This document shows positions 13,567 through 43,990 of a DNA stretch of 64,000 bases, piece by piece; the first letter of the stretch is position 1, and every line of letters starts with the position of its first letter. This DNA comes from Methanofollis ethanolicus (lineage in GTDB: Archaea; Halobacteriota; Methanomicrobia; Methanomicrobiales; Methanofollaceae). The stretch covers positions 1,116,001 through 1,180,000 of the forward strand of contig NZ_BCNW01000001.1 in the NCBI RefSeq assembly GCF_001571385.1, given 5' to 3'. Both the position numbers and the translations under genes were made by a program. The notes beneath the pieces are model-generated. The model was not told the DNA's origin, searched no databases, and worked only from the letters and a program-made list of their open reading frames with translations.

Positions 13567-14064
13567 ATGCGGATCTGGAAGTTCGGCAACGACATCGATA
13601 CGGACGCGATCATCCCCGGGAGGTACCTCACCGAGTACGACCCGAAAAAGCTCGCGGAACATGTCTTCGAGGGGACGAGAGACGACTTCAGGATCGCGGT
13701 GAAGGAGGGCGATGTCGTCGTCGCCGGCAGGAACTTCGGCTGCGGGTCCTCGCGGGAGCACGCCCCTCTCGCCCTTCTCGGGGCGGGGGTGAAGATCGTC
13801 GTGGCAGAGTCCTTTGCCCGGATCTTCTACCGGAACTCGGTGAACACCGGTCTCCTCCCCCTCATCTGCCCTGACACCGGGGCGCTCCTTGAAGGGCACG
13901 ATCTGACGGTCGACCTTGCAGGTGGATCCCTGGAGTCTGAAGGGGCCAGGTACCCGTTCGAAGCGGTGCCGCCCTTCATGCAGGAGATCGTGGACGCGGG
14001 AGGGCTGGTTGAATATGCAAAACAGATGAAGGAGGTAGAACTGTGTACAAAGTCGCAGCAATAG
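13567..14064 (+). CDS. leuD: 3-isopropylmalate/(homo)aconitate isomerase, small subunit
   Basis: 165 residues, starting 2 nt after the leuC stop with GGAGGTG ahead of the ATG. Family motifs are [16 protein letters not shown] near the N-terminus and the active-site loop [15 protein letters not shown]. The specificity loop after the first motif reads YLTEYDP. Published work on methanogen homologues associates this loop with substrate choice (YLRT-like for homoaconitase); the sequence here is neither the classical isopropylmalate nor the exact homoaconitase form. The 3' end overlaps the next gene by 22 nt. Confidence 0.9.
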
Positions 14065-15155
14065 GCGGAGACGGCATCGGACCGGAGATCCTGGATGAAG
14101 GAAAGAAGGTCCTCGACGCTGCAGGAGAGAAATATGGATTCGACATACAGTGGGACGAGTTTGCCATAGGGGCCGACAGATATCTGGAGACCGGGGAACT
14201 CGTCACCGAGGATGAACTGAAAGAGCTCTCCAGATACCGGGCGATCTACTTCGGCTCCATCGGCGACGACCGCGTGACGCCCGGCATCCTGGAGAAGGGT
14301 ATCCTCCTGAAGATGCGGTTCGCCTTCGACGAGTATGTGAACCTGCGGCCTATCAGACTCCTGAACGGCGTCCAGACCCCTCTCGCCGGGAAGAAGCCCG
14401 AGGACATCGACTTTGTCGTGGTGCGGGAGAACACGGAGGACTTCTATGTCGGAATCGGCTCGCGCTTCAAAAAGACGGAGAAAAAGGAACTTGAAGTCGT
14501 CCGGGACCTGTATTCGGTGAAGTTCGGCCTTGATGTCGAGAGCGACGCCGAGGAGATCGCCTACCAGATCGGCGTCATCTCGCGGGAGGGGAGCAGGAGG
14601 GTGATGGAGTACGCCTTCGACCTGGCCGAACGCCGGGAGAAGCGGGTCACCTCGGTCGACAAGGCAAACGTCCTCTCCGACGTCTACGGCCTCTGGCGTG
14701 AGGTCTTCACCGAGGTCGCGAGTCGTCACCCGGGCGTTTCGACCGAGTTCAATTTCGTCGACGCCGTGACGATGTGGTTTGTCAAGAAACCGGAGTGGTT
14801 CGATGTCGTCGTCACACCGAATATGTTCGGCGACATCATCACCGACCTCGGTGCGATGATCCAGGGCGGCCTCGGCCTCGCGCCGGGCGGCAACATCAAC
14901 CCGAAAGGGACCTCGATGTTCGAGCCCATCCATGGGTCGGCCCCGAAGTACAAGGGCCTCGGCGTCGCGAACCCCATCGCCACCATCTGGGCCGGCGGCC
15001 TCCTCCTCGACCACCTCGGTGAGCACGAGGCGGCAGAAGGGATCGTGCGGGCGATCGAGGGGACGATTCACGATGGCGTGGTGACCCGCGACCTCGGTGG
15101 CGCGGCGAAGACCGCGGACGTCGGCGACCATATCGCAGCGCGGGTCAGGGAATAA
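14043..15155 (+). CDS. leuB: Isopropylmalate/methylmalate-type beta-decarboxylating dehydrogenase
   Basis: 370 residues from GTG 14043, with GGAGGT nearby. The isocitrate/isopropylmalate dehydrogenase fold is evident: GGDGIGPEI, then [34 protein letters not shown] and [12 protein letters not shown]. The substrate helix reads [20 protein letters not shown]. This resembles the malate/tartrate-type subgroup as well as archaeal LeuB, which in Methanocaldococcus acts on both isopropylmalate and methylmalate. It is translationally coupled to leuD. Likely step: NAD-dependent oxidative decarboxylation in leucine and citramalate-isoleucine synthesis; homoisocitrate in coenzyme B synthesis is an alternative. 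Confidence 0.85.
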
Positions 15156-15208
15156 ACCCCTGCCATAAATGGCGTAGAAAAAAAGATCTTGCGAGATATG
15201 CCCTGCCC

Positions 15209-16207
15209 TCAGGCAGGGAGGGGCGCCGGCCATCCCTCATGCCCCTTCCCGAACTCTGCAACCATGAATGCCATGAACTCGCGGGCAAGGTCGGGGTGGG
15301 GGGCGGAGTTCGGGACAGTCGCCGCATACACGATGGGGGTCCCGACGCGGTCGCTTCCTATGGAGCCGAACCGCTGGAAGCCGAGTCTGACGACGACCGT
15401 ACGGTAATTATCCTGACATGCCGCAGACCCAAGGTCTATCTCAGGCGGCAGGGTGACGTACTTCAGGCCGTGCTCCTCCGCAACGCTCAGGTATTCGAAG
15501 GCATAGTCCACCCCGCCGGCGTCCAGGAGCGAGAGGAGGAAGATGCTGCCGTCGCGGATCCTGACCTTCCCGGTCTCCTGCTTGAGCACCTCGGGTAGGG
15601 TGATGGACGTGACGCCGTCCTTTTCCTCCACTGTCACATTTGGCCTGAGATGGTTCCCGAGGACGGCGTCGAAGATCTCGTCGTCCCCGTAGTATCTCTC
15701 TGCAAGAGTCGTCACCATCAGCGCCCTGTAGCCTGCGGCGTCAAGCATCGGGTTCGAGATCCCGACGACGACGTCGGGCCTCGACAGCACTTCATACCAG
15801 TTCTCTGAGGTGATCGCGTCGGCATACCTGCTCTGGTTCGTGAAAGCGATCACGACCCTGTTAGTGGCGAAGGGGGTGTACGTGTCGGTGTAATTCCCCT
15901 CCCCGCCCTCGACCGACCTGTACATCAGGTCAGGGATGAGTTCCTCATCCGCAACGACCACCAGGTCGATGTCGCGGTGGAGGTCGGTCACCTGCCTGAT
16001 GCACTGGATAGAGCCGTGCCCCTCGACCTGCACGTCCACACCAGGGTGGGATGCCTCAAACTCTGCCTCAATTTCTTCCATAGGAAGAAGAAGACTCCCT
16101 GCGGGGACGATCTTCAGGGTTGTCGGGGTATCGTCACCACCGATGCACCCGGTCGCAAGGACACACAATCCCACAAGAGCGAGGAACATGAGGGGGATGC
16201 CCCTCAT
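15209..16207 (-). CDS. Tungstate/molybdate-type ABC substrate-binding lipoprotein (WtpA/ModA-like), orphan
   Basis: 332 residues. The lipobox is VLATGCIGG (Cys ~21). The mature protein starts TLKIVPAGSLLLPMEEIEAE and continues HGSIQCIRQVTDLHRDIDLV, the ModA/WtpA signature (A/G-S-L near the N-terminus, G-S-x-x-x-x-R-Q, D-x-D-L). The second lobe has VVVGISNPMLDAAGYRAL. WtpA-type proteins bind tungstate or molybdate and normally sit beside wtpB and wtpC, but no permease or ATPase gene is present here. It is the last gene of the exported-protein operon, with ATG overlapping the preceding stop (ATGA, 16204-16207). Confidence 0.85.
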   Translation of the reverse strand: MRGIPLMFLALVGLCVLATGCIGGDDTPTTLKIVPAGSLLLPMEEIEAEFEASHPGVDVQVEGHGSIQCIRQVTDLHRDIDLVVVADEELIPDLMYRSVEGGEGNYTDTYTPFATNRVVIAFTNQSRYADAITSENWYEVLSRPDVVVGISNPMLDAAGYRALMVTTLAERYYGDDEIFDAVLGNHLRPNVTVEEKDGVTSITLPEVLKQETGKVRIRDGSIFLLSLLDAGGVDYAFEYLSVAEEHGLKYVTLPPEIDLGSAACQDNYRTVVVRLGFQRFGSIGSDRVGTPIVYAATVPNSAPHPDLAREFMAFMVAEFGKGHEGWPAPLPA

Positions 16208-16779
16208 GGGCGTTTCACCTCGATCCTATCCACCCACTTCACCCAGGCGCTCCCCTCGGTGATAGTGTCCGGTTCATCGGTGCCGACCACCATCCGCAGG
16301 GGACCGCCGTCTCCGTCGGGGATCGCCGTTCCGTTGAACTCATAGGCAAGGACCACAGTAAGAGCAGGAGAAGGTTTCTCTTTGAGGTTCTGATCTAAGG
16401 TCACAAAACCCTTTCCGGCCATCTGCTCGTCATCGAAGACCCAGTAGTAGCCGTCAGGTGCTGATATCCCTACCTGATCGCCGTCTCCAGACCCACCAAC
16501 GCGATCGAGCAGCGTTGCGAGGGTTACGCCCTTGACCGTGTACGGTCCGTACTTGATTCCGACCGTGGAGACCGCATAGCCATAGCCCTCCCAGGCAGGG
16601 AGTTCTTTGATCTCGGAGAAGGAGAGCACCTCCTCATTGGTGCCGTCAGAGATCGTGAGGTTCCAGGATATGTCCTCACCTACCGGACTGGCAGGGTTGG
16701 TAGTCCCGGTGCACCCGCAGGCGGCTGCAGCGCAGATCAGAGCGAAAACTGCCATCAAACGGACGAAACGAGTTTTCAT
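16204..16779 (-). CDS. Lipoprotein with sulfite-oxidase-fold (molybdopterin-binding-like) domain
   Basis: 191 residues from ATG 16779, which overlaps the preceding stop as ATGA. The lipobox is CAAAACGCTG. The single domain follows the oxidoreductase molybdopterin-binding pattern: LTISDGTNEEVLSFSEIKEL, GVTLATLLDRVG, GDQVGISAPDGY, VLAYEFNGTAIPDGDGGPLR, and the closing KWVDRIEV. The cysteine that binds Mo in true sulfite oxidases is missing here, so it is probably a non-enzymatic binding domain. It is next to a tungstate/molybdate-type binding protein, which makes the fold choice suggestive. Confidence 0.75.
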   Translation of the reverse strand: MKTRFVRLMAVFALICAAAACGCTGTTNPASPVGEDISWNLTISDGTNEEVLSFSEIKELPAWEGYGYAVSTVGIKYGPYTVKGVTLATLLDRVGGSGDGDQVGISAPDGYYWVFDDEQMAGKGFVTLDQNLKEKPSPALTVVLAYEFNGTAIPDGDGGPLRMVVGTDEPDTITEGSAWVKWVDRIEVKRP

Positions 16780-17627
16780 CCCCGCATCCTCCATGCAAAG
16801 CAGGCAACACCAAGTCCGGCCAGGAGTCCAAAGAGCGGGCCAGGGCTCTGAGTGGCCTGCGCGGTCGTCGGGACCTCTGGTGTCTCAATTGCAGCAGATC
16901 CCTGGAGTGACTTAACCGGAACATTCTTCGCTCCACTATACCCCCCCTCATAGACCCTGACCTCGTCGATCCATTTCACGGTATAGCCTGAAGTCGAAGG
17001 ATAGAGGTCGTTAAAGAGGTGGAGGCGCTCAGGCGGGAAACATTCGCGCATATCCTGGTTGCCAAAGACATGTTTGCCCTCCGGGTTGGTGGAGTTGTCG
17101 GCAAAGAGGACCAGGCGCATCCCAACATGATAGTCCGGCGGATAGCCGACGCCCTGACGCTCGCCAACAGCTGCATCTTCGCCATTGTACCAGCAGAGCC
17201 CTATCGGCCCCTGGCGCGGATCGGGTTCATAGACGTTCGTGTACCCGAACTCAATATGATACCCGTCACCTGCTTTGACCATCATCTCATCGTCGGGCTG
17301 CATCCCGCCGACCAGGCCGCAGAGGTCCTTGATGTCGGTACCCTTCACCGCACCGCGGTCCTTGAAGTTCGTGGTCTCATTCCTGTCCCACTGGGTCTCT
17401 TTGTCATCGGCAAAGACCGGGCCCTGGTGGTAGTAGTGGGTCGTGCCGTCGCCGAGGACGGGGAGGTTTGCCTCCATCCACAGGTAGTCAACGGTCGTCT
17501 CATTGAGCACGGTGGTGCCGTCGTCTGCAATCTTTACTATATGCACCGAGGTCGTCGGTGCGGCCTGCACCCCTGCGATACAGGCGCAGAGGAACAGGAG
17601 CAGAAATACACTCTTTGTTACATTCAT
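16776..17627 (-). CDS. Exported protein with 'NLPVxGDG' module and C-terminal membrane anchor
   Basis: 283 residues. The signal peptide is residues 1-22. The body is one copy of a module shared by four proteins here: SVHIVKIADDGTTVLNETTV, WMEANLPVLGDGTTHYY, DIKDLCGLVGGM, KHVFGNQDMRE and the closing VKWIDEVRVYEG. The second half parallels the sulfite-oxidase fold (GVPL.DLL..., DGY, ...KWI..I), so I think it is a degenerate relative, but this is inference. The C-terminus is a Thr-rich linker, QSPGP, a hydrophobic helix and a basic end: a PGF-CTERM-like sorting tail. Its stop overlaps the next start (ATGA), and the gap to the preceding gene is 4 nt. Confidence 0.75.
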   Translation of the reverse strand: MNVTKSVFLLLFLCACIAGVQAAPTTSVHIVKIADDGTTVLNETTVDYLWMEANLPVLGDGTTHYYHQGPVFADDKETQWDRNETTNFKDRGAVKGTDIKDLCGLVGGMQPDDEMMVKAGDGYHIEFGYTNVYEPDPRQGPIGLCWYNGEDAAVGERQGVGYPPDYHVGMRLVLFADNSTNPEGKHVFGNQDMRECFPPERLHLFNDLYPSTSGYTVKWIDEVRVYEGGYSGAKNVPVKSLQGSAAIETPEVPTTAQATQSPGPLFGLLAGLGVACFAWRMRG

Positions 17628-17631
17628 ACAA

Positions 17632-18870
17632 TCATCTTCCTTTTTTCAGATGCAGGGCGACCATACCAGCCGCCGCGCATGCACAGAAGGGAGAGAGAGG
17701 GGCCTGTGCAGCGTTCTCCCCTTCTGCCTTCGGCGTCATTTCAATTGTCTCGAAAGTGCTGTTCAGGGGGTAGAGGCTCACAACCTCCCTGTTGTCCTCT
17801 GAGATCCTGGCCACAGGCACCATGTCGACCGTCACCGTCTCTCCGTCCACACTGACCCGCAGGTACGCGAGGGTGTGGTCGAGGCCGTTTTCAAAACCCG
17901 GCGCCTTCTTCTTGGCAAGAGGAAAGAGTTCCTCGCCGCCGCACGGAATCACGAAGTACGGCGTGCCGTTGATATCATAGCGTTCATAGGCATGGATATG
18001 CCCGTTGAAGACCGCCGTTACGTTGTAGCGGTCGAAGAGGGGCGCCCATTCCCGCTGCAGGACGCGGTCGCCGCCCCAGTGGCGTTCATTGGACGAGTAG
18101 ACCGGGTGGTGGAAGGCGACGAAGATCCGGCCCGAAGACCGGGCGAGGTCGGCCTCCAGCCAGGCAGTCTCTTCGTCGATCCTTCCCTTCGCCCAGTCGT
18201 TCGAGTCCAGGACGACGACATGCGCGTCGCCCCAGTCAAAGGAGTACCACTCGGGGACGCCGAACGCGTCATAGTACGGCGTCCTGTTCCCCTCGTGGTT
18301 GCCGAGGGACGGCACCAGGGTGGTGTTCGCAAGCATCCCCCTCGCCGCCGCGAAGTACTCGTCCCATTCAGCGAGGTCATTCCCGAAGGTGACGAAGTCG
18401 CCGCAGTGGATGACAAAGGAGAGGTTTTCCTCCTCTGCGATCCTGTCGGCAACGAGTCTGTGCCTCTCCATCTGGGTGAAGAGGGGGACCTGTCCCCTCG
18501 TGTCGCTGTACACCGCGAAGGCGAAAGGCCCCTGACCTGCGGTCATGAACCGGCAGTCAGGGCCCCTTGCATCCCGTGCAGTGACGACATAATGATACAT
18601 CGTCCCGGCTGTGAGGTTCGTAAGCCGCACATGGTGGAGGGTCACACCAGAAGGTTCGGCAACGGTGTGGACGTACTCCCCGGCATTTTCAAACTCATCG
18701 GCAGTCGCATAGGAGACATTCCCGCTGGACGGCCCTGCGGTCTTCCAGGAGACGACGGCCGTCGTCTCGTCGGTACCGGTGACATACGGCCCCCAGAGAA
18801 AGGTGGCATTCCCGGCAGCAACGGCTGAGGGGATGATCAGGAGGAGGAGGAAAGTTCCTGCCCCTCTCAT
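17632..18870 (-). CDS. Exported purple-acid-phosphatase-like metallophosphoesterase
   Basis: 412 residues from ATG 18870 (ATGA overlap with the preceding stop). A signal peptide is followed by an Fn3-like N-terminal domain (residues ~25-115). The calcineurin-like fold then shows YSDTRG, VIHCGDFVTFGNDL, LGNHEGN, FHHPVYSS and NGHIHAYER, covering all metal-binding blocks. The C-terminus has SPFCACAAAGMVALHLKKGR, a hydrophobic anchor. Purple acid phosphatases hydrolyse phosphate esters outside the cell; a nucleotide or phosphosugar substrate is possible. It lies in the middle of the exported-protein operon. Confidence 0.88.
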   Translation of the reverse strand: MRGAGTFLLLLIIPSAVAAGNATFLWGPYVTGTDETTAVVSWKTAGPSSGNVSYATADEFENAGEYVHTVAEPSGVTLHHVRLTNLTAGTMYHYVVTARDARGPDCRFMTAGQGPFAFAVYSDTRGQVPLFTQMERHRLVADRIAEEENLSFVIHCGDFVTFGNDLAEWDEYFAAARGMLANTTLVPSLGNHEGNRTPYYDAFGVPEWYSFDWGDAHVVVLDSNDWAKGRIDEETAWLEADLARSSGRIFVAFHHPVYSSNERHWGGDRVLQREWAPLFDRYNVTAVFNGHIHAYERYDINGTPYFVIPCGGEELFPLAKKKAPGFENGLDHTLAYLRVSVDGETVTVDMVPVARISEDNREVVSLYPLNSTFETIEMTPKAEGENAAQAPLSPFCACAAAGMVALHLKKGR

Positions 18871-21800
18871 CTCCTCAACCTGACCTCGCACGTTGTCACC
18901 TCGTCGGGTCTGACCAGCACGTCATCGACTGTCCGTGAGTCAGAACGGCCGACGACCTTGACCGAGTACCTGCCGAGGTCCATGCCGGTGAAGAGGTGGG
19001 GCGTCACCTCGCCGGTGTTCTGGCCGTAGAGATAGATCTTCGCTCCTTCAGTCGTGCTGTTCACGTACAGGGAACCACTGGCATAGGACGCAAGCATGAA
19101 CTTCACGTCCACCTCATCACTCCCCTTCGGGACGAGGACCACATCTTCCTTCGGCAGGTAGCCCGGTTTGGTGAGCATGACTCTGTGGCGCCCGGGAGAG
19201 ACATTCTCAACGACGTACGGGGTCGCACGCCCGGTGTCAAAGCCGTCCACGAAAATCTCGGCGCCCTGGGGGGTAGAGTCCACCCTGAGGGCGGTCAGTC
19301 CCCCGGTCTCCGGTCGGAGTGTCTGGGTGCTCCCGTCTTCGACAAAGTCGGAGATGGGCACCGAGATATAGGAACTGTTCCTGCTGAATGCGACAAAGGA
19401 ACTCAGGCCGCCGAACTTTATCTTCGCAGGCACCTTCTTCCCCGTATAGTAACCGTTGACCGAACAAGGTTCGCCCTTGTATCCCGGGATGTCGACAGTG
19501 AGTGTCTTTTGCATCCCATGCTCGTTCCGGTCAAAGCGTACAGGGATGACCACGCCCGGAGAGACCCAGACCTCCTTCGTGTCGATTTCATAGGAGGCCT
19601 TCGCCTTCTTCACCTTCACGCGGTGAAGGCCTTCTTTGAGGCCGTTGACCACCTGCGGGGTCTGTGCATCGATCTTTTTGTTGTCGATGTAGATGTCTGC
19701 CCCGTCGTCGCTCGCCTCCACATAGATGCCACCGGAGCGGGAGTTCATCCCCTGAATAGCGGCAAGGGTGAGGCAGAGGGGGTCGACATGGAGATTTTGG
19801 TTGCAGGGATCGAGGGAGACGGCAACATCTGTGTCCTCGTCGAGGTCGAAGGAGGTCTCGTAGGGACGATAGTTCTCCAGTTCGATCCTGAGTGTGTGGA
19901 CTCCTGCCGGGAGGTTGGGGAGAGATGCCGGGGTGACCAGACCGGTGTAGTCACCGTCCAGGAAGACCTGCGCACCTGCGGGGTGGGTGATGACGGTGAC
20001 CGCGGCATGGGAGGCCGCCGGCGTCGCCACAGGTGTGGGGGTCAGGGTCGGGCCGCCGACGTCCTGTTCTGTCCCGACCGGCGCCGGGGTTTTTTCATTC
20101 TCCTCAATGCCGAACCACCCGGCGATCATCGCCCACAACCCGGAAAAGAAACCCGAAGAGGTTTCGGGCTCTGTCGGTTGCACAGATGTCTCTACTGTTA
20201 CGGGAGCAGTGGTGATTTCAGCTGTTGTAACCGTCTCTGTCGGCGGCACTGTCGCGGTCGTGATCGGCAGGGCCCGGACAGACATCCGGGTTGCGGCAAT
20301 GAGGACAAGCCTGTTCTCCATGTAGTCGCCAGGATCGCCGGTCGGGATACTTACGATCTCGACTTTGTTCCCGGCATCCCTGAGATAGGGCGTCGCATCG
20401 GCCCTGCAGATACTGACGGCGTCCTCCCCACCGGTGAGGAGGTTGGTCCACTCACCACCATTGAGGGCGACGCGGTTTGTAAACGTGTCATTCCCGGCCG
20501 CACCGGTGCTGACGACAGACAGAGCAACGACAGTCCGGTCGTCTCTCCCTATCGGGTCGGTGAAGTCGGCGGTGGTGCAGGCGTCGTCCTCGGTGACCCC
20601 CCATGCGGGGTCTGCCTGGATGACATCGGCACCCTCGGCGATCCACCAGGAGGTGTGGTTGCCCGATGTGTCGGCGACCGGTGCGACGAGGACGCCGCCG
20701 GAGAGGGTGACCAAACCCTCTTTCTGACCTGCATTCCTGACATGGAGGGTATGGTTCGCCGGCGACAGCGTCTTCAGGGCATAGCACCAGGTCTCGACGG
20801 TAGGGTTGCGGCCGTCAGCGTCGTCGGCATAGTACGCATTGGCAGCGAGTCTCGTGTTCCCGAGGGAGACCTCAAGGTCGGTACCGTCGTCAGACGGACT
20901 GCCCGTGTTGTTCGTCCCGAAGAGGTAGAGGCGCACACCAGAGGTCTTCCCCATGCCGGTTGTGTTCAGGAAGAGAGTGCAGGAATCACCACTCTTCAGG
21001 GTGCAGAAACCTCCATCAGAGGGGATGACCTGCACCGTGCCGTTCACTGTGCCATGGTCGGCGACCGTGAGGTCAGAACCCTTGAATCCGTGGGGCCTGC
21101 TCACGCTGCTGTCAGAACCACCTGACCCGCCGGATCCTCCCTGAGAGGGGGAAAGCTGGCTGTGGATGGTGATCTGGTTGACCATCTGGACTGAAACACC
21201 ACTCGCAGAGGGATACTGACCATTGTAGTAGTACCAATACTCTTCATCCCAGGACTCGTGCATGTCCCAGTTGCCCCAGACATGCATCCCCTGCTCATTC
21301 GTTTCAGGGGTAAGGAAGTAGAGGCGCATGCCTTCCCGGAAGTTCTCATTCACGTAGCCGGTGTCCTTGCCATGGTACCACGCGATCACTATTGGTCCCT
21401 GCCTGGGGTTGGGGGTGTAGATGTACTCCGCCGGCCATGTCTTCGTCAGTCCGTCCGATGCCTTGATGGTTACCATATCGGTCGGTTCGGCACCGCCGAC
21501 AAGGTTGCAGAGGTCCTTCACGTCTGTGCCCATGAACTGACCGTGGTCCTTATAGACCAGGTTCACGTCTTCGGTCGGGTTCCAGCCGTCATAGGTCTCG
21601 CCCGGGTGAACTTCATCCCATGCCCCTTCAAAGATCGGCCCCTGCGTGTAATACATCGTCTCTCCGTCCCCCTGGACAGGGAGATTGTCCCGCATCCACT
21701 GCCAGTCGACCGTTTTTTCGGCGAGGACGGTGGTGTCGTCAGAGGCGATTTTGGTGATCTTCAGTTCTGTCGTCGCAATGGCCGACACCGGGATTGTCAT

Positions 21801-21884
21801 TGCCTCAACAACCAGAAGAACGACAAAAACAAAGAGAAATGTCTGATGTCGTTCAGATAGGGTCGTCTTCATATGTATCATCAT
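18867..21884 (-). CDS. Large exported multidomain protein: NLPVxGDG module, DUF3344-like domain, PEGA repeats
   Basis: 1005 residues. A signal segment is near residues 15-35. Domains: NLPVxGDG module (~40-242, KDLCNLVGG and HVWGNWDMHE); Gly/Ser linker; a DUF3344-like beta domain (~268-535; GTVNGTVQVI, VRLYLFGTNN, HTLHVRNAGQKEGLVTLSGG, ENRLVLIAA); a Thr/Pro linker with a short amphipathic patch (FFSGLWAMIAGWFGI); then about four PEGA domains (~627-1005), for example GAQVFLDGDYTGLVTP, GAEIFVDGFDTGRATP and GAKIYLYGQNTGEVTP. It lacks the usual C-terminal hydrophobic tail. The start at 21884 overlaps the preceding stop; ATG 21872 is an alternative. PEGA domains are typical of archaeal surface proteins. 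Confidence 0.8.
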   Translation of the reverse strand: MMIHMKTTLSERHQTFLFVFVVLLVVEAMTIPVSAIATTELKITKIASDDTTVLAEKTVDWQWMRDNLPVQGDGETMYYTQGPIFEGAWDEVHPGETYDGWNPTEDVNLVYKDHGQFMGTDVKDLCNLVGGAEPTDMVTIKASDGLTKTWPAEYIYTPNPRQGPIVIAWYHGKDTGYVNENFREGMRLYFLTPETNEQGMHVWGNWDMHESWDEEYWYYYNGQYPSASGVSVQMVNQITIHSQLSPSQGGSGGSGGSDSSVSRPHGFKGSDLTVADHGTVNGTVQVIPSDGGFCTLKSGDSCTLFLNTTGMGKTSGVRLYLFGTNNTGSPSDDGTDLEVSLGNTRLAANAYYADDADGRNPTVETWCYALKTLSPANHTLHVRNAGQKEGLVTLSGGVLVAPVADTSGNHTSWWIAEGADVIQADPAWGVTEDDACTTADFTDPIGRDDRTVVALSVVSTGAAGNDTFTNRVALNGGEWTNLLTGGEDAVSICRADATPYLRDAGNKVEIVSIPTGDPGDYMENRLVLIAATRMSVRALPITTATVPPTETVTTAEITTAPVTVETSVQPTEPETSSGFFSGLWAMIAGWFGIEENEKTPAPVGTEQDVGGPTLTPTPVATPAASHAAVTVITHPAGAQVFLDGDYTGLVTPASLPNLPAGVHTLRIELENYRPYETSFDLDEDTDVAVSLDPCNQNLHVDPLCLTLAAIQGMNSRSGGIYVEASDDGADIYIDNKKIDAQTPQVVNGLKEGLHRVKVKKAKASYEIDTKEVWVSPGVVIPVRFDRNEHGMQKTLTVDIPGYKGEPCSVNGYYTGKKVPAKIKFGGLSSFVAFSRNSSYISVPISDFVEDGSTQTLRPETGGLTALRVDSTPQGAEIFVDGFDTGRATPYVVENVSPGRHRVMLTKPGYLPKEDVVLVPKGSDEVDVKFMLASYASGSLYVNSTTEGAKIYLYGQNTGEVTPHLFTGMDLGRYSVKVVGRSDSRTVDDVLVRPDEVTTCEVRLRR

Positions 21885-22672
21885 CTCCGGAGAAGGATGC
21901 CTGCGACGAGAGCGGCAAGAACCGCGGCAATTCCAAGGGGGGCCTGTGGAGTCGGCGTTTCGGGGGTGTTTTCTCCTCCATTTGTCTCGTGGCCGGTATA
22001 GATCTCAAGATCGCTCACCTGCTTGACCGAAAGACCGCTCGTCGACGGCCATGTGCCGCTGAAGAAGTGCCACTCGCCCTCGGGCAGGGTCTCTTTCATG
22101 TCGGTGTCCCCGAAGACGTGCCTACCCCAGGGATTTGTCGAGGCGTCGGCAAAGAAGATCAGGCGCATGCCGTCATAATACTCCGGGACATAGCCCGATC
22201 CCTGCGGGTCACCGGTGACCGAGTCCTCACCGACATACCATGCAAGGCCCATCGTCCCCTTCCTTGGATTCTCGGCATAGACAGTTGCATGGGAGAAGTT
22301 CTTGTAAAACCCGTCCTCTGCCTTCACTTTGAGGGTGTCGCCTGACCCCATACCGCCGACGAGGCCGCAGAGATCCCTGACGGCCGTTCCTTTCACGGCG
22401 CCATAGTCCCTGCTCTCCACATTTTGGTACTCGGCCGGATCCCAGAGGTCTGACTCGTTGAAGGTCGGGCCCTGGTGGTAGTAATGGGTCGTCCCGTCAC
22501 CAAGGACGGGGAGGTTCGTCTCCATCCAGATATAGTTCACCGTCTTCTCGTTGAGGATGGTCGTGCCGTCTGGGGCATACCTGACGATATGGATGTCGCT
22601 CGTCGCCGTCGTCGGCAGGACTACAAGGTAAATGGCGAGAAGGGCGATCAGAACAAAGTTATGGTTTCTCAT
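21881..22672 (-). CDS. Exported protein with 'NLPVxGDG' module and C-terminal anchor
   Basis: 263 residues from ATG 22672, preceded by a strong GGAAGGTGATG site. The signal peptide is FVLIALLAIYLVVLPTTA. It is a close paralogue of the protein at 16776: IHIVRYAPDGTTILNEKTV, WMETNLPVLGDGTTHYYHQG, VRDLCGLVGGMGSGD, RHVFGDTDMKE, VKQVSDLEIYTG. The C-terminal tail is TPQAPLGIAAVLAALVAGIL with RR, an anchor or sorting tail. It is 35 nt from the preceding giant gene and its stop overlaps the next start. Confidence 0.75.
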   Translation of the reverse strand: MRNHNFVLIALLAIYLVVLPTTATSDIHIVRYAPDGTTILNEKTVNYIWMETNLPVLGDGTTHYYHQGPTFNESDLWDPAEYQNVESRDYGAVKGTAVRDLCGLVGGMGSGDTLKVKAEDGFYKNFSHATVYAENPRKGTMGLAWYVGEDSVTGDPQGSGYVPEYYDGMRLIFFADASTNPWGRHVFGDTDMKETLPEGEWHFFSGTWPSTSGLSVKQVSDLEIYTGHETNGGENTPETPTPQAPLGIAAVLAALVAGILLRR

Positions 22673-22707
22673 TTTTTCATCACCTTCCAAGGCAAAAAAA
22701 GAGAATA

Positions 22708-25700
22708 TCATCTCCTCCTGAGGAGGAGAAGGGCGCCGAAGGCGATGAAGGGCAGGGCCCAGAAGACCGGCGACTGTTGCGGGGTCGTGGGAGTGGGTGT
22801 CGCTGCCGTTGTCTCATTGATCGCCGGTGTCGGGGCCGTGACCTCTCCCACCGGTGCCTGCACATCGTCGGGGGCCACTGCCGAACCTTTCTCTGCCGTG
22901 ATGGCAAAGAAGGAGAAGCCCGGGGACTCGGCCGAATAATATGCCTTGCCTTCCTTCTCCTCGATAAAGGTCGTCTGCAGACGGATCCACTCTCCATTCA
23001 CGTGCCGCAGGAGGGCCACGTCGCCGGCCGAAACGCCCTGGGCCTTCAGCCACGCGGCTTCAACGGCAAACTCGATTGTAACTCCTTCGATCGCCAAAGG
23101 GTCGGTCTTGTAAAGTGTGACCTCCTGGATCTCGTAGACCGCACCCTCTGGTGCCGGGGCGCCCTTCGGCAGGCTTGCCTTCTTCACCGTAAAGAGGAAG
23201 TGTTCGATCCGGTCATAGGCGCTGACCGTGATCGTTGAGAACGCGGTCTCGGTCACGGAGAAGGACTTCGATTCACCTGCCGGGATGGAGCCGGAAACAG
23301 CTGAGACCGCGGAGGTGCTGCCGCTAGAGGATGAGTGGCTGTACGAGGGCGACGGAGTCGGGGCTGGGGCCGCAACGCCGCCGACCGCGAAGTAACAAAA
23401 TCCTGGTGTGGTTGCACTAAAGTACGCCCTTCCATTCTCCTCTTTGATAAATGTTGTTGGGAGACCCTGCCATGCACCATTCGTGTACCGCAGCAGCCTC
23501 ACATCGGTGACCGCCATCCTGTGGGAGTTCAGCCAGGTGAGAGGGAGGTCAAAGGCGATGACTGCCTCGTCGATGGTGTTTTCAGGGGCAGGGTAGACGA
23601 TATGGAGGTACTGGAAGATGTTCTCAGCAGGTGTGTCGATGTAGTTCGGGAGTTCATCGGGGACGTCAATGGCCAGTTCTCCATCCCTGACGTCTCCGGC
23701 GGCCTTGATGGTTATTTTTGAGACTGCACCCTTCTCAAGATCCAGTGCCTTCTCGCCGCCAGCACTGATGTTCCCGAGGGAGACGATGTTACCCTGCAGG
23801 TTCGGCGGGATGAAGGAGACCTTGACGACACCCTTGATGGTGTCCATACCGCTGACATTCTCGCCCACAAGGCGGAGGGGCCAGTTCTCGTCGTCACCGG
23901 CAATATGCATGCCGTTCAGAGAGTTGGCAAGGATGTACTTGTCGCTGTACATCGCGTCGCGGCTGTCTATGATAGTCTCCGAACCGTCTTTACCGACGAT
24001 ATGGATGGCATAGCCTTCGGCCGCGAGGGTGTCATTGAATGACTTACCTGTATGGAAGTTCTCGTCATCGACATAGCCGAGGAGGAACCAGAGAGGCATG
24101 CCTGACCATTCTCTGCCCTTGCTGTCTGTGTAGGACTTCTCGTGGTTGGCGCCCATGGTGCAGGCAAGACCGCTCTCGAAGTAGCCCTTGCTGATGGTCT
24201 TGTCGATTGCTCCGTCGAGCTGGAGGTTCCAGGTGGGTTCTGCTACGTCGTAGATCCTGATCTCAGAGATATATTTGGCCGAGAGCCCGGCGCAGGACGG
24301 GAGACCTGAGTTGTAGTGCCAGTATTTCTCGTCGATGCACTCGTGCATGTTCCACTGCCCGAAGACGTGGTCGTCGGGCGCAAAAAAGAGCCGGTAGCCG
24401 TCGGCATAGTCGGGGACATAGCCCTGCCGTCCGGTGTACCACACCAGGACAGCCTCGCCCTGCTGCTCCTCGGGGGCATAGATGTTGCCGTAATGGAGGG
24501 ACGTCTCCCATCCGTCAGGGGCTGCGAAGGTGATCTCAGTGTCAGGGCCCATGCCGCCGGCGAGGTTGCAGAGGTCACGCACGGAGGTTCCCTTGATCTG
24601 CTCATCGATCTTCAAACCACCTGGATAGGTCTCGGCCTGATCCCAGGGGTCCGCGGGCGGGAAGTTCAGTCCCTCGAAGTAGTAGTGCGTCTCGCCGTCA
24701 CCGTACACCGGGAATTTTTCTTCCATGTACCTGTAGTCGATGGTCTTCTCGCTGAGGACCGTCGTGCGGTCGGCAGCGTACTTGACGATCCGCACTGAAG
24801 GGATCTCGGTCGGTTTCTGGAACGCGGTCAGTTCGATGCTTTCGATACTTGCCACACTCTGCGACCCTTCGGTCAGCGCAGAACCGACCAGCCTGACAGG
24901 GTAACCATTTTCGTTGGTCAGAAGGGTTCCGTTCAGTTTGTTGGCGATGATGAAGTCGTTGTTCTGGGAAACGATTTTGCTGCTGAACTCCTTGCTGTAG
25001 TCTCCTGACCCGGTGACGATCACCGTGTAGCCCTGTGCAGCAAGTTTGCTGTTAAATGCGCCAGACCCGTGGATGGTATAGTCGTCAACCCAGCCGCAAA
25101 GGCTCCAGAGCGGGATACCCGACCATTCGCGGTTCTTGTCGTCGGTCCAGGTGACGGTGTGGTGCGAACATGCTGCGGCCGCCTCGAACTCGCTCTGTGT
25201 GATGGTGTCGGTGATCTCACCCTTCAGGGTGAGCGTCCATTCACCGGGCTTCGGTCCTCCCGGCAGGCCGACGAGTGAGATTTCACTGATTGTTCCGACT
25301 TTCTGTTTCCCGGATGTGACGTTCTTTCCGACAAGTTTGAGCGGGAAGTCCCCTTCTGCAAGAGGCTGCCCGTTGAGGGTGTTGGCCACGATATAGTCGG
25401 AACTCTTTGCGACATTTGCACTGGCGAAGGTGGCGTTGAAACCGTCAGATGCACTCACCCTCACGGTATAGCCGTCTGCGGCGAGCTGGGTGTTGAATGC
25501 GCCAGACCCGTGGATGGTGTGGTCGTCGACCCATCCGGTGAGGTACCAGAGGGGCATGCCCTTCCACTCACCGGCCTCGTCTGTGTAGGTGACGCCGTGG
25601 CACCGCACAGATTCTTCGAAGTACGCCTGGGTGAAGGTGTCTTCGATGTCGCCTTTCAGGGTGAGGGTCCAGCCTTCGGAGGGTTCGGGGAGGCCGACGA

Positions 25701-28119
25701 GTTCGATCGCGCCGATGTTCCCGATCTTTTTGCCCATCGTGACATCAGAACCCACCATCTGGAGCGGCCAGCAGGGTTTGCCTCCTGAGGTCAGTTCTGG
25801 GAGAGGCTGCCCGTTGAGGGTGTTGGCCACGATATAGTTGTTGTTCCTGGCAATGGCTGCGCTCGGGAAGTTGATGTCGTACGGATGTGTCAGGTTCCGG
25901 TCGGTGACCTTCACCGAGTACCCTTCGGCTGCCAGTTCGTTGTTGAATGTGTAGTGGCTGCCGGTATCCTCGTCGTCGACCGCTCCCACGAGGTACCAGA
26001 GGGGCACGCCCTTCCATTCGCCGTCTCCGTCAGTGTAGGTGGCGACATGGCCGCAGTCCACCGCATCTTCAAACTGTGCCTTGGTGAACGAGACGGTGGT
26101 CTTGCCCTTCAGGGTGAGAGCCCAGTCACCGGGTGCGGATGCGACCTTAACGGTGGCCTGTATGATTGCCAGGGCGTTCTCCCGTGTCGTCGAGCCGTCA
26201 GGACCATACAGGAAGAGTACGACGTCACCATTCTGGAGAGGCTGGTCGGCACTGTTATAGGCGGCTGAACGGGCTTCACCGTTCACAGAGCAGGCCCAGG
26301 CCTCCTTGTAGGTGTCATTCACCTTGTTGTAGCGATAGGTGCCGATGTCATCAAGGAGCAACTGGCCATATTGCCACTTCTTATTGGTGAAGTTATAGAG
26401 GAAGCCTTTTTCCTGTGCGGCGGCATCAAGGGCGCCGAGAGGGGTGAGGGCCGGAATGCTGTGCGTGGTGCCCTGGCTTGCGGTCACGGTGACGTTGCCC
26501 GCGCCGAGCGTAACTTCGCCATTGTAGACGATGTCAGCATTTGTGAGGCGTGCCGTGATAAGTACCGCTGCTTCAGCGTTCTCCGGAGTGGTCGCACCTT
26601 TTGGGCCGTAGTAAAAGTTCACCCTGTCGCCGTCGACGAGGACACGTTTGTTCAGGCCGTCGGTGCTCGGCTTGCCGTAATCATCAAGGGCCACATCGTT
26701 CACGTAGCAGGTCCAGCTCTTCTGGCTCTTGATGAATGGGTAAGAATCGATGTCATCGAGCATCAGGATGCCAGAATCGATCCACTTCCTGTCGGTGACC
26801 TTATAGGTGAAGCTCTCAGCCTTTGCAACGGTGTCGAGGGCGCCAAGTGGAGTCCGGTATGGGATCTGGTAGGAAGAACCCTGACTTGAAGTCACAGTGG
26901 CTTCCCCTTTGGGGAGGAAAACATCTCCATCATAGAGGAGATCCGCACCTGTAGGCGCTGTCGTCACCGTCACATCCGCGGTACCCTCGACAGTCTCGTT
27001 TGTTGCGGTGACCGTCGTCGTGCCCGCCGCGTGTGCAGTGAAGTATCCGGTCTCGTTCACGGTCCCGACAGTTTCATTGCTGCTCGACCACTCGAAGGTG
27101 AGGCCGGTCATCGGCCGGTCATTCTGGTCGAGGGCAGCGGCGGTGAACTGCTGCTTTTCGTTCACCTTCAGGTCGGCGACAGCGGGAGTAACATTGATCG
27201 AGGTCAGAATTGGCTTGATGCCGGTCACAGCATAACCAGACGCACCACCCGCACTCAGGGGGTTAGTCCAGCGGACGCCCTGACCCTGGTTCGAGGAAAC
27301 AGTATAGACATAGGCGTTGAAGGCTGCAAAGGTCTCCAGATTCTCGAATGAGTACTCGACCTTAATAGCACCTTTGTCGTTGATCGCCTGTCCGGAGAAG
27401 TCAGGCTGTGAAAGCGTATTCTTTCCGAGGATACCTGCGTTCAGGTCGATGAACATGATTGAGAAGGTGTTCCCGGTATCGGTCATGTCCTGTCTGTCGA
27501 AGATCGGGTAATTGACCGCCGGACAGGGCCTCCAGATCTGTGGTCCATAAAGGAAATCATCCTTTGTGAACGTCTCGTCCAGTGCTTCAGGCACATAGGT
27601 GATGTTCTCGAATGCCGGGAAATTGCCCTTCTGAACCGGTGTCCACTGATAACCGCTCGCCTTGATGTTGACTCTGAAGTCATCGGGAATGGTGCCGTTG
27701 ACTGCCAGCATCAGGATGCCATTGTCGTCCCAGCCGCGGCCACCTGTGTCGTTGATATAAAAGACACCAGACTGGTCGTTGCTGAATACAACTTGGCTGC
27801 TGAAGTTCAAAGCATCAGTCGTAATATGAAGTGCGTTCAGACCCTGTGTGCCACTCTGAGTCGGGCTGAAGAAATGATAGGTGTTGTTGCCGTAATCGTT
27901 GAAACGGGCAGCACCATCATTTGAAACGTGTAGTATAACATTACTATTCGAAGGAATCACCTTGTAGGTGCTGGAATCAGCATCCGAACCAGCGGTCTCA
28001 CTCAGTTCCAGCGGTTCGGCCACCGCCGGGGCAATACAGAAAGCCGAAAGCAGGAGGAGAAGGAGGGCCAACCCCCATTTCCACTGCATGCGGCCTAAAT
28101 CAGTCGTACATATTGTCAT
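22708..28119 (-). CDS. Giant surface protein: A/B module, Big_2, two DUF4430-like, four sulfite-oxidase-fold repeats, PGF-pre-PGF
   Basis: 1803 residues. A signal peptide is within the first 35 residues (ATG at 28089 is an alternative start). Domain order: surface module A/B (~70-300; GLNALHIT, FLYGPQIWRP, MFIDLNAG); Big_2 (~302-386); two DUF4430/transcobalamin-like domains (~387-657; TPLGALD twice, YYGPKG, LYGPDG); three sulfite-oxidase-fold repeats (~664-1099); one NLPVxGDG module (~1107-1292); a fourth sulfite-oxidase-fold repeat (~1295-1436); two PGF-pre-PGF domains (~1450-1583, 1610-1742); Thr/Pro linker; QQSPVFW plus a hydrophobic helix and RRR. First gene of the seven-gene exported operon. 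Likely anchored at the cell surface; ligand unknown. Confidence 0.8.
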   Translation of the reverse strand: MTICTTDLGRMQWKWGLALLLLLLSAFCIAPAVAEPLELSETAGSDADSSTYKVIPSNSNVILHVSNDGAARFNDYGNNTYHFFSPTQSGTQGLNALHITTDALNFSSQVVFSNDQSGVFYINDTGGRGWDDNGILMLAVNGTIPDDFRVNIKASGYQWTPVQKGNFPAFENITYVPEALDETFTKDDFLYGPQIWRPCPAVNYPIFDRQDMTDTGNTFSIMFIDLNAGILGKNTLSQPDFSGQAINDKGAIKVEYSFENLETFAAFNAYVYTVSSNQGQGVRWTNPLSAGGASGYAVTGIKPILTSINVTPAVADLKVNEKQQFTAAALDQNDRPMTGLTFEWSSSNETVGTVNETGYFTAHAAGTTTVTATNETVEGTADVTVTTAPTGADLLYDGDVFLPKGEATVTSSQGSSYQIPYRTPLGALDTVAKAESFTYKVTDRKWIDSGILMLDDIDSYPFIKSQKSWTCYVNDVALDDYGKPSTDGLNKRVLVDGDRVNFYYGPKGATTPENAEAAVLITARLTNADIVYNGEVTLGAGNVTVTASQGTTHSIPALTPLGALDAAAQEKGFLYNFTNKKWQYGQLLLDDIGTYRYNKVNDTYKEAWACSVNGEARSAAYNSADQPLQNGDVVLFLYGPDGSTTRENALAIIQATVKVASAPGDWALTLKGKTTVSFTKAQFEDAVDCGHVATYTDGDGEWKGVPLWYLVGAVDDEDTGSHYTFNNELAAEGYSVKVTDRNLTHPYDINFPSAAIARNNNYIVANTLNGQPLPELTSGGKPCWPLQMVGSDVTMGKKIGNIGAIELVGLPEPSEGWTLTLKGDIEDTFTQAYFEESVRCHGVTYTDEAGEWKGMPLWYLTGWVDDHTIHGSGAFNTQLAADGYTVRVSASDGFNATFASANVAKSSDYIVANTLNGQPLAEGDFPLKLVGKNVTSGKQKVGTISEISLVGLPGGPKPGEWTLTLKGEITDTITQSEFEAAAACSHHTVTWTDDKNREWSGIPLWSLCGWVDDYTIHGSGAFNSKLAAQGYTVIVTGSGDYSKEFSSKIVSQNNDFIIANKLNGTLLTNENGYPVRLVGSALTEGSQSVASIESIELTAFQKPTEIPSVRIVKYAADRTTVLSEKTIDYRYMEEKFPVYGDGETHYYFEGLNFPPADPWDQAETYPGGLKIDEQIKGTSVRDLCNLAGGMGPDTEITFAAPDGWETSLHYGNIYAPEEQQGEAVLVWYTGRQGYVPDYADGYRLFFAPDDHVFGQWNMHECIDEKYWHYNSGLPSCAGLSAKYISEIRIYDVAEPTWNLQLDGAIDKTISKGYFESGLACTMGANHEKSYTDSKGREWSGMPLWFLLGYVDDENFHTGKSFNDTLAAEGYAIHIVGKDGSETIIDSRDAMYSDKYILANSLNGMHIAGDDENWPLRLVGENVSGMDTIKGVVKVSFIPPNLQGNIVSLGNISAGGEKALDLEKGAVSKITIKAAGDVRDGELAIDVPDELPNYIDTPAENIFQYLHIVYPAPENTIDEAVIAFDLPLTWLNSHRMAVTDVRLLRYTNGAWQGLPTTFIKEENGRAYFSATTPGFCYFAVGGVAAPAPTPSPSYSHSSSSGSTSAVSAVSGSIPAGESKSFSVTETAFSTITVSAYDRIEHFLFTVKKASLPKGAPAPEGAVYEIQEVTLYKTDPLAIEGVTIEFAVEAAWLKAQGVSAGDVALLRHVNGEWIRLQTTFIEEKEGKAYYSAESPGFSFFAITAEKGSAVAPDDVQAPVGEVTAPTPAINETTAATPTPTTPQQSPVFWALPFIAFGALLLLRRR

Positions 28120-38722: not shown

Positions 38723-38917
38723 ACAAAAGAATTTGATAACTCCTGAAACCTTATAGTTTTCGCTTTGGCTCTCCGGGCATACCGGCCGCCGTAGCATCCC
38801 GGTCTGGTGCGATCTATATCCGAAAAAAGGCTGACTACAGAGATAGTTAAGTCAACAGGATTTATTGAACCAATATGGGGAAATCAACAGTGTAATAACG
38901 GCCACTCGCCATACCTG

Positions 38918-39934
38918 ATGTCATATGGCTGTGATCCCGTGGAGATAACCGATTCGAAGAGAGATGACCTCACCGGGGAGGCGGAGGCGTGCAGACAGAT
39001 GCTCCTCCCGGTGAAGGAGGAGATGCAGAAGGTGATCGTCGGACAGGAGGAGACGATCGACGGCCTCCTCACCGCCCTCGTGGCAGGGGGCAACGTCCTC
39101 CTCGAAGGGGTGCCCGGACTTGCAAAGACCCTCATCGTCCGGTCCCTCGCCTCCTGCATCGACTGCTCCTGCGCCCGCATCCAGTTCACCCCCGACCTCC
39201 TCCCCTCGGACATCACGGGGACGACGGTGTACAACCAGAAGGACGGCACCTTCTCCCTTGTCAGGGGCCCGGTCTTCCACAACATCATCCTCGCGGACGA
39301 GATCAACAGGGCGCCGCCGAAGGTGCAGTCCGCGCTCCTCGAAGCGATGCAGGAGAGGCAGGTGACGATCCAGGGCGAGACCCTGCCCCTCCCCGACCCC
39401 TTCTTTGTCCTCGCCACCCAGAACCCCCTCGAGTCAGAGGGCACCTATCCCCTCCCTGAGGCGCAGACAGACCGTTTCCTCTTCAAACTCCTCATCGACT
39501 ACCCGACAGTCGCGGACGAGGTCGAGATCCTGGACAGGTACGCCTCAGGAACCAGCATCGCCCCGGCCTGCGTCCTCTCTGTCCGGGACCTCCAGAGAGT
39601 GCGGGCGGCGGCACGGGCCGTCCACGCCGACACCGCGGTGCGGGAGTACGCGGCCAGGGTGGTGGACGCCACGCGCCACCCGGCCGCGTACTGCCTCGAC
39701 CTTGCAGACACCGTCACATGGGGGGCCTCGCCGCGGGCGACCATCGCCCTCGTCCTCGGAGCAAAATCCCGTGCCCTCCTCGCCGGCAGGGGCTACATCG
39801 TCCCCCATGACATCAAGGCCGTCGCCCACGCCGCCCTCCGCCACCGTATCCTCCTCACCTATGCCGCCGAGGCCGCGGGCACAGGTACCGATACGGTCGT
39901 CGACACCGTCCTTGAGGCCGTCGAGGTACCGTGA
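38918..39934 (+). CDS. MoxR-family AAA+ ATPase
   Basis: About 338 residues. Walker A is EGVPGLAKT, Walker B is ILADEINRAPPK, sensor 1 is FVLATQNPLE, followed by TYPLPEAQTDRFLFK. MoxR ATPases act as chaperones that work with VWA-domain proteins, and the next genes supply these. The N-terminus is uncertain: ATG 38918, GTG 38939 and ATG 38807 are in frame; 38918 was chosen as the shortest ATG form. First gene of a four-gene operon (moxR, DUF58, VWA, BatD-like) with 1-4 nt overlaps. Confidence 0.9.
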   Translation: MSYGCDPVEITDSKRDDLTGEAEACRQMLLPVKEEMQKVIVGQEETIDGLLTALVAGGNVLLEGVPGLAKTLIVRSLASCIDCSCARIQFTPDLLPSDITGTTVYNQKDGTFSLVRGPVFHNIILADEINRAPPKVQSALLEAMQERQVTIQGETLPLPDPFFVLATQNPLESEGTYPLPEAQTDRFLFKLLIDYPTVADEVEILDRYASGTSIAPACVLSVRDLQRVRAAARAVHADTAVREYAARVVDATRHPAAYCLDLADTVTWGASPRATIALVLGAKSRALLAGRGYIVPHDIKAVAHAALRHRILLTYAAEAAGTGTDTVVDTVLEAVEVP

Positions 39935-40794
39935 TGGAGGAGGACATCGCCGCCCTGATCCGGGGGGTGCGGCCGGTGCCCCTCCAGGCCCTCCTCCCTG
40001 TCGGCGGCATGCAGGCAGGCAGGCACCGCTCCTGTCTCACCGGGCAGGGGGTCGAGTTTGCCGGGATCAGGGCCTATGTCCCGGGCGACGACGTCCGCAC
40101 CATCGACTGGAAGGTGACCGCACGCCGGGGCGTCCCCTATGTGCGGGAGTACGCGGAGGACAGGGAGACGACCCTGTACCTCGCCGTCGACGTCTCGGCC
40201 TCTGCCGGTTTTTGCGGCACGGCAGGCAAGGAAGAGGCGATCATCGAGGCGGCGGCAGCGCTCGCCCTCGGCGCGGGGGAGAACGGCGACCGGGTCGGCC
40301 TCTGCCTCTTCTCAGACAGGGTGGAGACGTTCATCCCGGCGCGGCGGGGGAAGAGGCACATCGCCGCCGTCCTCTCCGCACTCCTCGACCGCCTCCCCTT
40401 CTCGGGGGGGACAGATATCGCCGCACCCCTCAGGTTCATCGCCGCCGCCGTCCCGAGGCGCTCCACCGTCGCCGTCGTCTCGGACTTCTTCGGAGACCCC
40501 TTCTTCGACGACCTCGCCATCCTGCGGCGGCGCCACGAGACCGTGCTCGTCAGGGTCGTCGACGCCGCGGAGGACGCGGTCCCTGATGTCGGCCTCATCT
40601 CCCTGGAGGACCCGGAGACAGGAGAGCAGATCCTCGCCGACACCTCAGACCCTGTCTTCAGGGCCGGGTACAGGGAGGCCGCAGAGGAGGAGGCGCGTGC
40701 CCTCGCCATCGGCGCCGGCACCTGCAGGACACCTCTCCTGCCCCTCAGGGCAGGGGACGACCTCTCCGATGCCGTAACGGGGAGGAGGAGGTAG
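39934..40794 (+). CDS. DUF58 domain protein (VWA-like)
   Basis: 286 residues; ATG overlaps the MoxR stop by one base. Typical DUF58 block: EFAGIRAYVPGDDVRTIDWK near residue 47, followed by ARRGVPYVREYAEDRETTLY. A VWA-like fold then has the MIDAS-type start AVDVSASAGF and SGGTDIAAPL. DUF58 proteins co-occur with MoxR and VWA proteins in envelope-related or complex-assembly systems. Cytoplasmic; no membrane helix. Confidence 0.88.
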   Translation: MEEDIAALIRGVRPVPLQALLPVGGMQAGRHRSCLTGQGVEFAGIRAYVPGDDVRTIDWKVTARRGVPYVREYAEDRETTLYLAVDVSASAGFCGTAGKEEAIIEAAAALALGAGENGDRVGLCLFSDRVETFIPARRGKRHIAAVLSALLDRLPFSGGTDIAAPLRFIAAAVPRRSTVAVVSDFFGDPFFDDLAILRRRHETVLVRVVDAAEDAVPDVGLISLEDPETGEQILADTSDPVFRAGYREAAEEEARALAIGAGTCRTPLLPLRAGDDLSDAVTGRRR

Positions 40795-43169: not shown

Positions 43170-43284
43170 TCTATTTAACCCGGGCGTGGCGGCCTCCAGC
43201 CGCACGTCGTATCTTCCCCCTTTTCAGGACCAATTCCGCAGGTTTTTATCCGAGCAACAGCGAAAACGAGTACAGGAGATTTCT

Positions 43285-43989: not shown

Positions 43990-43990
43990 C

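Follow-up and report, generated by a model that had tools for sequence, protein, structure and literature searches.

The stretch of DNA analyzed here (the window) spans 64 kb, C1:1116001-1180000 of a 2.71-Mb archaeal genome. Seven genes on its minus strand run from a large tandem-repeat surface protein to a WtpA-type lipoprotein, and each junction between them lies between a 25-bp overlap and a 4-bp gap. The gene order is tandem SUOX protein, KY protein, KY-DUF3344-PEGA protein, metallophosphoesterase, P0003, P0002 and P0004 (Table 1), where SUOX stands for the sulfite-oxidase fold. The group is called an operon on the basis of gene order and overlap. An ORF behind wtpA (13827-15233, minus strand) was discarded as antisense to a leuB-type gene, and no Rfam elements were found in the 9-48 kb part of the window. 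A divergent cluster on the plus strand (38807-47535) encodes MoxR, DUF58 and VWA proteins and an ECF-type transporter, comprising an S-like component (44785-45333), a dual ATPase (45323-46759) and a likely T component (46756-47535). A surface protein (43991-44788) shares sequence with neighboring surface proteins. In genomes of the same genus, the MoxR/ECF cluster stays beside the tandem operon.

Table 1. The tandem gene, the domains of its product and the other genes of the operon, in window coordinates.
Feature	Position	Strand	Basis or remark
Tandem SUOX-fold surface protein, 1803 aa	22708..28119	-	ORF list of the 64-kb window; orthologues with the same arrangement in 10/12 genomes of the genus
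Big_2 Ig-like domain, residues 306-385	26965..27204	-	Pfam PF02368, E 8.2e-12
Two DUF4430-like repeats, about residues 391-655	26155..26949	-	PF14478, 17.5 bits, weak, below cut-off; internal repeat visible in the sequence
SUOX-fold repeat R1, residues 663-812; Cys689, His691, His722; Asp at Mo-ligand position	25684..26133	-	
SUOX-fold repeat R2, residues 813-959; Cys840, His841, His870	25243..25683	-	
SUOX-fold repeat R3, residues 960-1106; Cys984, His987, His1017; Asp993/994 at Mo-ligand position	24802..25242	-	
Fifth, divergent SUOX-fold domain (KY domain), residues 1107-1294	24238..24801	-	No Pfam match; model of the homologous P0003 domain
SUOX-fold repeat R4, residues 1294-1437; Cys1320, His1326, His1356	23809..24240	-	
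PGF-pre-PGF surface domain, residues 1614-1742, then TM anchor and RRR	22894..23280	-	NCBIfam TIGR04213, E 2.4e-42, two stretches
KY-domain surface protein, 276 aa	21881..22711	-	4 bp overlap with the tandem gene
KY, DUF3344 and PEGA-repeat surface protein, 1005 aa	18867..21884	-	
Secreted metallophosphoesterase, purple-acid-phosphatase-like, 419 aa	17632..18891	-	PF00149, E 4.8e-14; PF16656, E 5.5e-10
KY-domain anchored protein P0003, 283 aa	16776..17627	-	
SUOX-fold lipoprotein P0002, 196 aa; without Mo Cys, keeps DGY and W-V-K-W	16204..16794	-	PF00174, E 3.8e-12; hhalign probability 96.8
WtpA-type tungstate/molybdate-binding lipoprotein P0004, 332 aa	15209..16207	-	TIGR03730

From its N terminus, the tandem protein consists of a Sec-type signal, an N-terminal surface domain, a Big_2 domain, two DUF4430-like repeats, the series R1-R2-R3-KY-R4, a PGF-pre-PGF stalk and a C-terminal TM anchor. 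The signal is Sec-like and no twin arginine is present in its sequence, in agreement with the original prediction of a Sec-type surface protein. Four repeats with W-x-G-x-PLW blocks, each preceded by a cysteine, had likewise been predicted, and they are present, with the blocks at 702, 852, 999 and 1338 and the cysteines at 689, 840, 984 and 1320. Pairwise identity among R1-R4 is 36-54%, and the whole protein matches Pfam family PF00174 (69.6 bits, E 3.2e-19); taken together, the match and the inter-repeat identity indicate that the repeat pattern did not arise by chance. All four cysteines are kept in the 10 orthologues of the genus. The DUF4430-like pair, which represents transcobalamin-type domains, lies directly upstream of R1, and its ligand could be a corrinoid or another small molecule.

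The predicted sulfite-oxidase fold of the repeats is borne out by modeling. An AF2 model of R3, built from 28 related repeats, reached a pLDDT of 88.8, and its best structural match is chicken sulfite oxidase (Z 14.1, 127 aligned residues, 2.8 A), while the PruR proteins match with Z 11.5-12.4. A Foldseek search with the same model is in agreement (PruR 7KOS, E 3e-6). PF00174 matches R3 alone with E 2e-9, and 12 of the 28 related repeats match individually. The repeats share with the sulfite oxidase family (PF00174; 1SOX, YedY 1XDQ, SorA 2BLF) the fold and the motifs W-x-G-x-PL, A-x-x-x-N-G and PL-x-L-V. They differ from it in the loss of the Mo-ligand cysteine and of W-x-K-W, and in an extra loop of 10-15 residues that carries the second of two conserved histidines.

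The count of four repeats stood, but it had missed a fifth SUOX-fold domain between R3 and R4. A Pfam scan of residues 1107-1294 gave no match. The homologous domain of P0003 was modeled with a pLDDT of 88.9 and matches both PruR (Z 11.2) and sulfite oxidase (Z 11.0), and the tandem protein therefore has five SUOX-fold domains. The KY domains of the other operon proteins are 42-45% identical to the copy in the tandem protein, and from this identity we infer the same fold for those other than the P0003 domain. Counted in this way, the operon would encode at least nine SUOX-fold domains: five in the tandem protein and one each in the proteins encoded at 21881-22711 and 18867-21884, in P0003 and in P0002.

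The original prediction placed the repeat cysteines where sulfite oxidase binds molybdenum, and this assignment did not hold: they lie apart from the cofactor site, an outcome that the prediction itself had named as refuting it. A direct PDB sequence match aligned sulfite oxidases over the C-terminal half only; since the register of the cysteine could not be settled in this way, Cys-bearing archaeal relatives were used instead. The Cys-bearing PF00174 proteins of the same order read ...FPHY-KVVTLxCVEGWDVTILWEG.... In the hhalign alignment of the repeat profile with Cys-bearing archaeal PF00174 proteins (probability 96.5, E 7.7e-10), A-C-S-H-H-T-V-T-W-T-D of the repeats is matched to the residues that lead up to and include the Mo cysteine. 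The repeat cysteine thereby falls 9-12 residues upstream of the Mo cysteine, with the strand between the two positions. The offset is a range because the Mo-Cys column falls at a gap beside Asp. The R3 model also places the cysteine away from the cofactor site: it lies at the C-terminal end of helix 18-26, strand 32-35 follows, and the Mo-ligand position comes only after the strand. This position is occupied by Asp in 229 and by Asn in 9 of the 251 repeats with a readable residue. The hhalign register, the R3 model and the Asp/Asn at the Mo position thus rule out the repeat cysteines as Mo ligands. The cofactor-anchoring motif W-x-K-W is found in 0/263 repeats, compared with 25 of 30 archaeal Cys-bearing proteins. 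Both the Mo-ligand cysteine and W-x-K-W are thus gone from the repeats, and the five SUOX-fold domains are very probably not molybdoenzymes.

A true surface molybdo- or tungstoenzyme, loaded with its cofactor during or after export and perhaps ligated by Asp at the Mo position, is accordingly very unlikely. The fold, the conserved Asp/Asn and the nearby W transport genes would suit such an enzyme, but the repeats have neither a cysteine at the Mo position nor W-x-K-W, and the protein has no twin-arginine signal. To our knowledge, moreover, Asp ligation of Mo does not occur in the SUOX family. Only two PF00174 loci were identified in the genome, both in the tandem-protein operon, and a genome search found no Cys-bearing SUOX protein of the CVEGW type. 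Membrane-anchored SUOX proteins with the Mo cysteine (CVEGW; L053-L082) are common in the order.

The cysteine of the repeats belongs to a different conserved set of residues. In all four repeats, the 10 orthologues keep the cysteine, a histidine 1-7 residues later and a loop histidine after VDD. The same pattern extends across 263 distinct repeats: the loop histidine is present in 210/210 Cys-bearing repeats, and both histidines, including the one on the strand, are present in all 208 Cys-bearing repeats checked with a stricter pattern. Among the Cys-less repeats, 37 are without the loop histidine and 16 retain it. A histidine takes the place of the cysteine in 6 of these 16, compared with 0 of the 37 (p = 3.5e-4). 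When the repeats are clustered at 60% identity, the association between the cysteine and the loop histidine persists (p = 4.6e-13). In one family (L086, L087, L092, L093), the two residues disappeared together from the orthologous third repeat, and joint loss is seen again in other families. Beyond the order, genomes of an Argoarchaeum-type family have repeats with the same triad residues. In one genus (L146, L147, L148, L152, L131), Trp replaces the cysteine of the first repeat and both histidines are kept.

A putative metal site is proposed in R1-R4 on two grounds: the cysteine and the loop histidine disappear jointly, and histidine replaces the cysteine only in repeats that retain the loop histidine. 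Judged from this pattern, the Cys/His-His-His triad, which is separate from the Mo site, most likely serves to bind a metal ion. The alternative offered in the original prediction, that the cysteine was kept for another ligand, is thereby supported. One conserved cysteine per repeat could also point to disulfides between repeats or between molecules instead of a metal site. We give this explanation almost no weight, as the cysteine never occurs without the loop histidine, histidine replaces it in six repeats, and the cell surface is anaerobic.

The closest small structures to the R repeats and the KY domain are those of PruR (7KOS/7KP2/7KOM/7RKB), a secreted, periplasmic SUOX-fold protein that has no Mo cysteine and binds reduced pterins through a site that includes Tyr104 and Trp160 in the A. 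tumefaciens numbering (PMC13259868). The proteins are alike in combining the SUOX fold, secretion and the loss of the Mo-ligand cysteine. PruR, with one domain of about 170 aa, is paired with DcpA in Proteobacteria, whereas the domains described here are tandem, surface-anchored, archaeal and Wtp-linked; R1-R4 carry a Cys-His-His triad in addition and lack the Trp/Lys part of the pterin pocket. As possible counterparts of Tyr104 and Trp160, the repeats sometimes show Tyr/Phe and have no W-x-K-W, and the lipoprotein family conserves DGY and W-V-K-W; direct alignment with PruR stops short of these residues.

The relatives of P0002 are strongly conserved in the motifs G-x-G-Y-A-V-S-T-V-G, A-P-D-G-Y-x-W-V-F, G-G-P-x-R and S-x-W-V-K-W-V-D-R-I-E-V. 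Of the cofactor pocket they retain DGY and W-V-K-W, and their Mo-Cys column is mostly Ala. A search among them for relatives that retain the Mo cysteine found Cys in the aligned column (GYCVST) in only 4 of 45. These four (GYCVSTTG; L135, L138, L139, L145) belong to one family (f5). Since R1-R4 are without the Trp/Lys end of the pterin pocket, the P0002-type lipoproteins appear to be better pterin-binding candidates than the repeats. Lipoproteins with 51-56% identity also occur on contigs labeled Omnitrophota and Clostridiaceae (L241, L213), which are probably mis-binned archaeal contigs.

The binding of free pterin outside the cell, also raised in the original prediction, has a precedent in PruR (PMC13259868), but the incomplete pocket of R1-R4 speaks against it for the repeats. 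In its general form, this explanation holds that the domains bind free pterins or tungstopterin extracellularly, for signaling or salvage. It draws on the structural proximity to PruR and on the D-G-Y and W-V-K-W retained in the P0002 relatives. The state of the R1-R4 pocket and the lack of a diguanylate cyclase partner count against it; the scan of neighboring window proteins gave no diguanylate cyclase/phosphodiesterase of the DcpA type. We consider it unlikely and rank it after the structural explanation discussed below.

The link between the operon and tungstate uptake, absent from the original prediction, comes through P0004. With 338.9 bits against TIGR03730, P0004 is above the WtpA equivalog cut-off of 242.75, and solved archaeal homologues match it down to E 8e-73. 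The gene for WtpA lies directly downstream of that for the SUOX lipoprotein in 45 of the 45 Methanomicrobiales loci fetched. The pair is also found in 8/8 loci outside the order, some of them with WtpB and WtpC. Among the 45 loci of the order, a KY gene lies upstream in 43, the phosphoesterase in 27 and the tandem protein within 16 kb in 31; some of the loci without these neighbors sit near contig ends, and many genomes are fragmented. WtpB and WtpC follow downstream in the same direction in nine loci; in nine further loci they are encoded nearby on the opposite strand. Both names are the best NCBIfam matches, which fall below the equivalog cut-offs of those models. Among the named relatives are Methanoculleus, Methanogenium, Methanocalculus, Methanocorpusculum, Methanoregula, Methanolinea, Methanospirillum and Candidatus Argoarchaeum, and SUOX domains beside a WtpA-type lipoprotein gene form an operon structure in at least seven archaeal families. 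Strong tandem repeats were found in 71 of the 78 lipoprotein-bearing genomes (Fisher p = 8e-37 over 232 genomes of the order, ignoring relatedness). Neither the locus counts nor the repeat counts are independent, and both are inflated by relatedness. SUOX-fold surface genes are thus linked to the tungstate-uptake gene wtpA.

The operon resembles the WtpABC transporter in that its WtpA passes the WtpA equivalog cut-off and wtpB and wtpC follow in nine relatives. Known wtp operons are described as consisting of A, B and C (PMC5517513); here, unlike in those operons, wtpA comes after genes for surface SUOX-fold proteins, KY proteins and a phosphoesterase, and wtpB and wtpC lie elsewhere. No wtpB or wtpC beside the operon's WtpA was found in the window. 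The only clear WtpB of the genome is at C1:1209369, about 77 kb from the operon, where it adjoins a second WtpA (the two together at C1:1208397-1210103, outside the window). This separation is a point against W or Mo uptake. A second such point is that the surface-type genes upstream could serve adhesion or envelope structure.

The main rival explanation develops this second point. The SUOX fold would have been reused for spacing or adhesion, each copy would be stabilized by a zinc site of the Cys-His-His type, and WtpA would be linked to it through a co-regulated cell-envelope operon. Tandem repetition and the PGF-pre-PGF stalk agree with a structural or adhesive role, as does the upstream neighborhood, which is largely ordinary surface-protein material (Big_2, PQQ, NosD and DUF3344). 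So do the repeat number, which differs from genome to genome, and the existence of repeats without the triad. Envelope structure alone, however, hardly explains a lipoprotein-WtpA pair that is present in 53/53 loci, with WtpB/C in the same operon in several families. We regard this rival as rather doubtful, though it deserves to be weighed.

Our preferred reading, held with about even confidence, is that the tandem protein is not an enzyme and forms the large surface part of an operon whose function is the acquisition of W or Mo. Hydrogenotrophic methanogens need W or Mo for their formylmethanofuran and formate dehydrogenases. In such an acquisition system, the tandem protein, the KY proteins, the secreted phosphoesterase and the lipoprotein would display SUOX-fold domains outside the membrane, beside the WtpA-type lipoprotein. 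W or Mo would be captured extracellularly as an oxyanion, a thio-oxyanion or a pterin-bound form. The captured metal would then be handed to WtpA and from there to the WtpBC importer. A more specific proposal is offered tentatively, as a possibility well short of even confidence: Methanomicrobiales and Argoarchaeum-type archaea may possess an extracellular W/Mo acquisition apparatus, composed mainly of cofactor-free SUOX folds, in which the surface Cys-His-His arrays and the pterin-pocket lipoprotein capture a W/Mo species such as thiotungstate or tungstopterin, and the phosphoesterase and WtpA release it to WtpBC. If true, W would have its own surface receptor system, as iron and cobalamin do, and this system would be constructed from an enzyme fold that normally uses the metal.

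We know of no W/Mo capture system described outside the membrane beyond WtpA/ModA/TupA, and the open-access literature searched yielded no description of this operon or of a surface SUOX/tungstate system. The presence of many cofactor-free SUOX-fold surface domains ahead of a tungstate importer, in a conserved operon, makes extracellular W/Mo capture directly testable. It also shows how a catalytic fold for a metal cofactor can be reused as a repeat unit carrying a new putative metal-type site, and it is a warning against the automatic annotation of such proteins as molybdopterin oxidoreductases. At one locus outside the order (L187:19150-19926), an FdhD-like ORF, recognized by eye from the motif SGCGG, lies about 7 kb beyond WtpC and is a possible Mo/W cofactor context.
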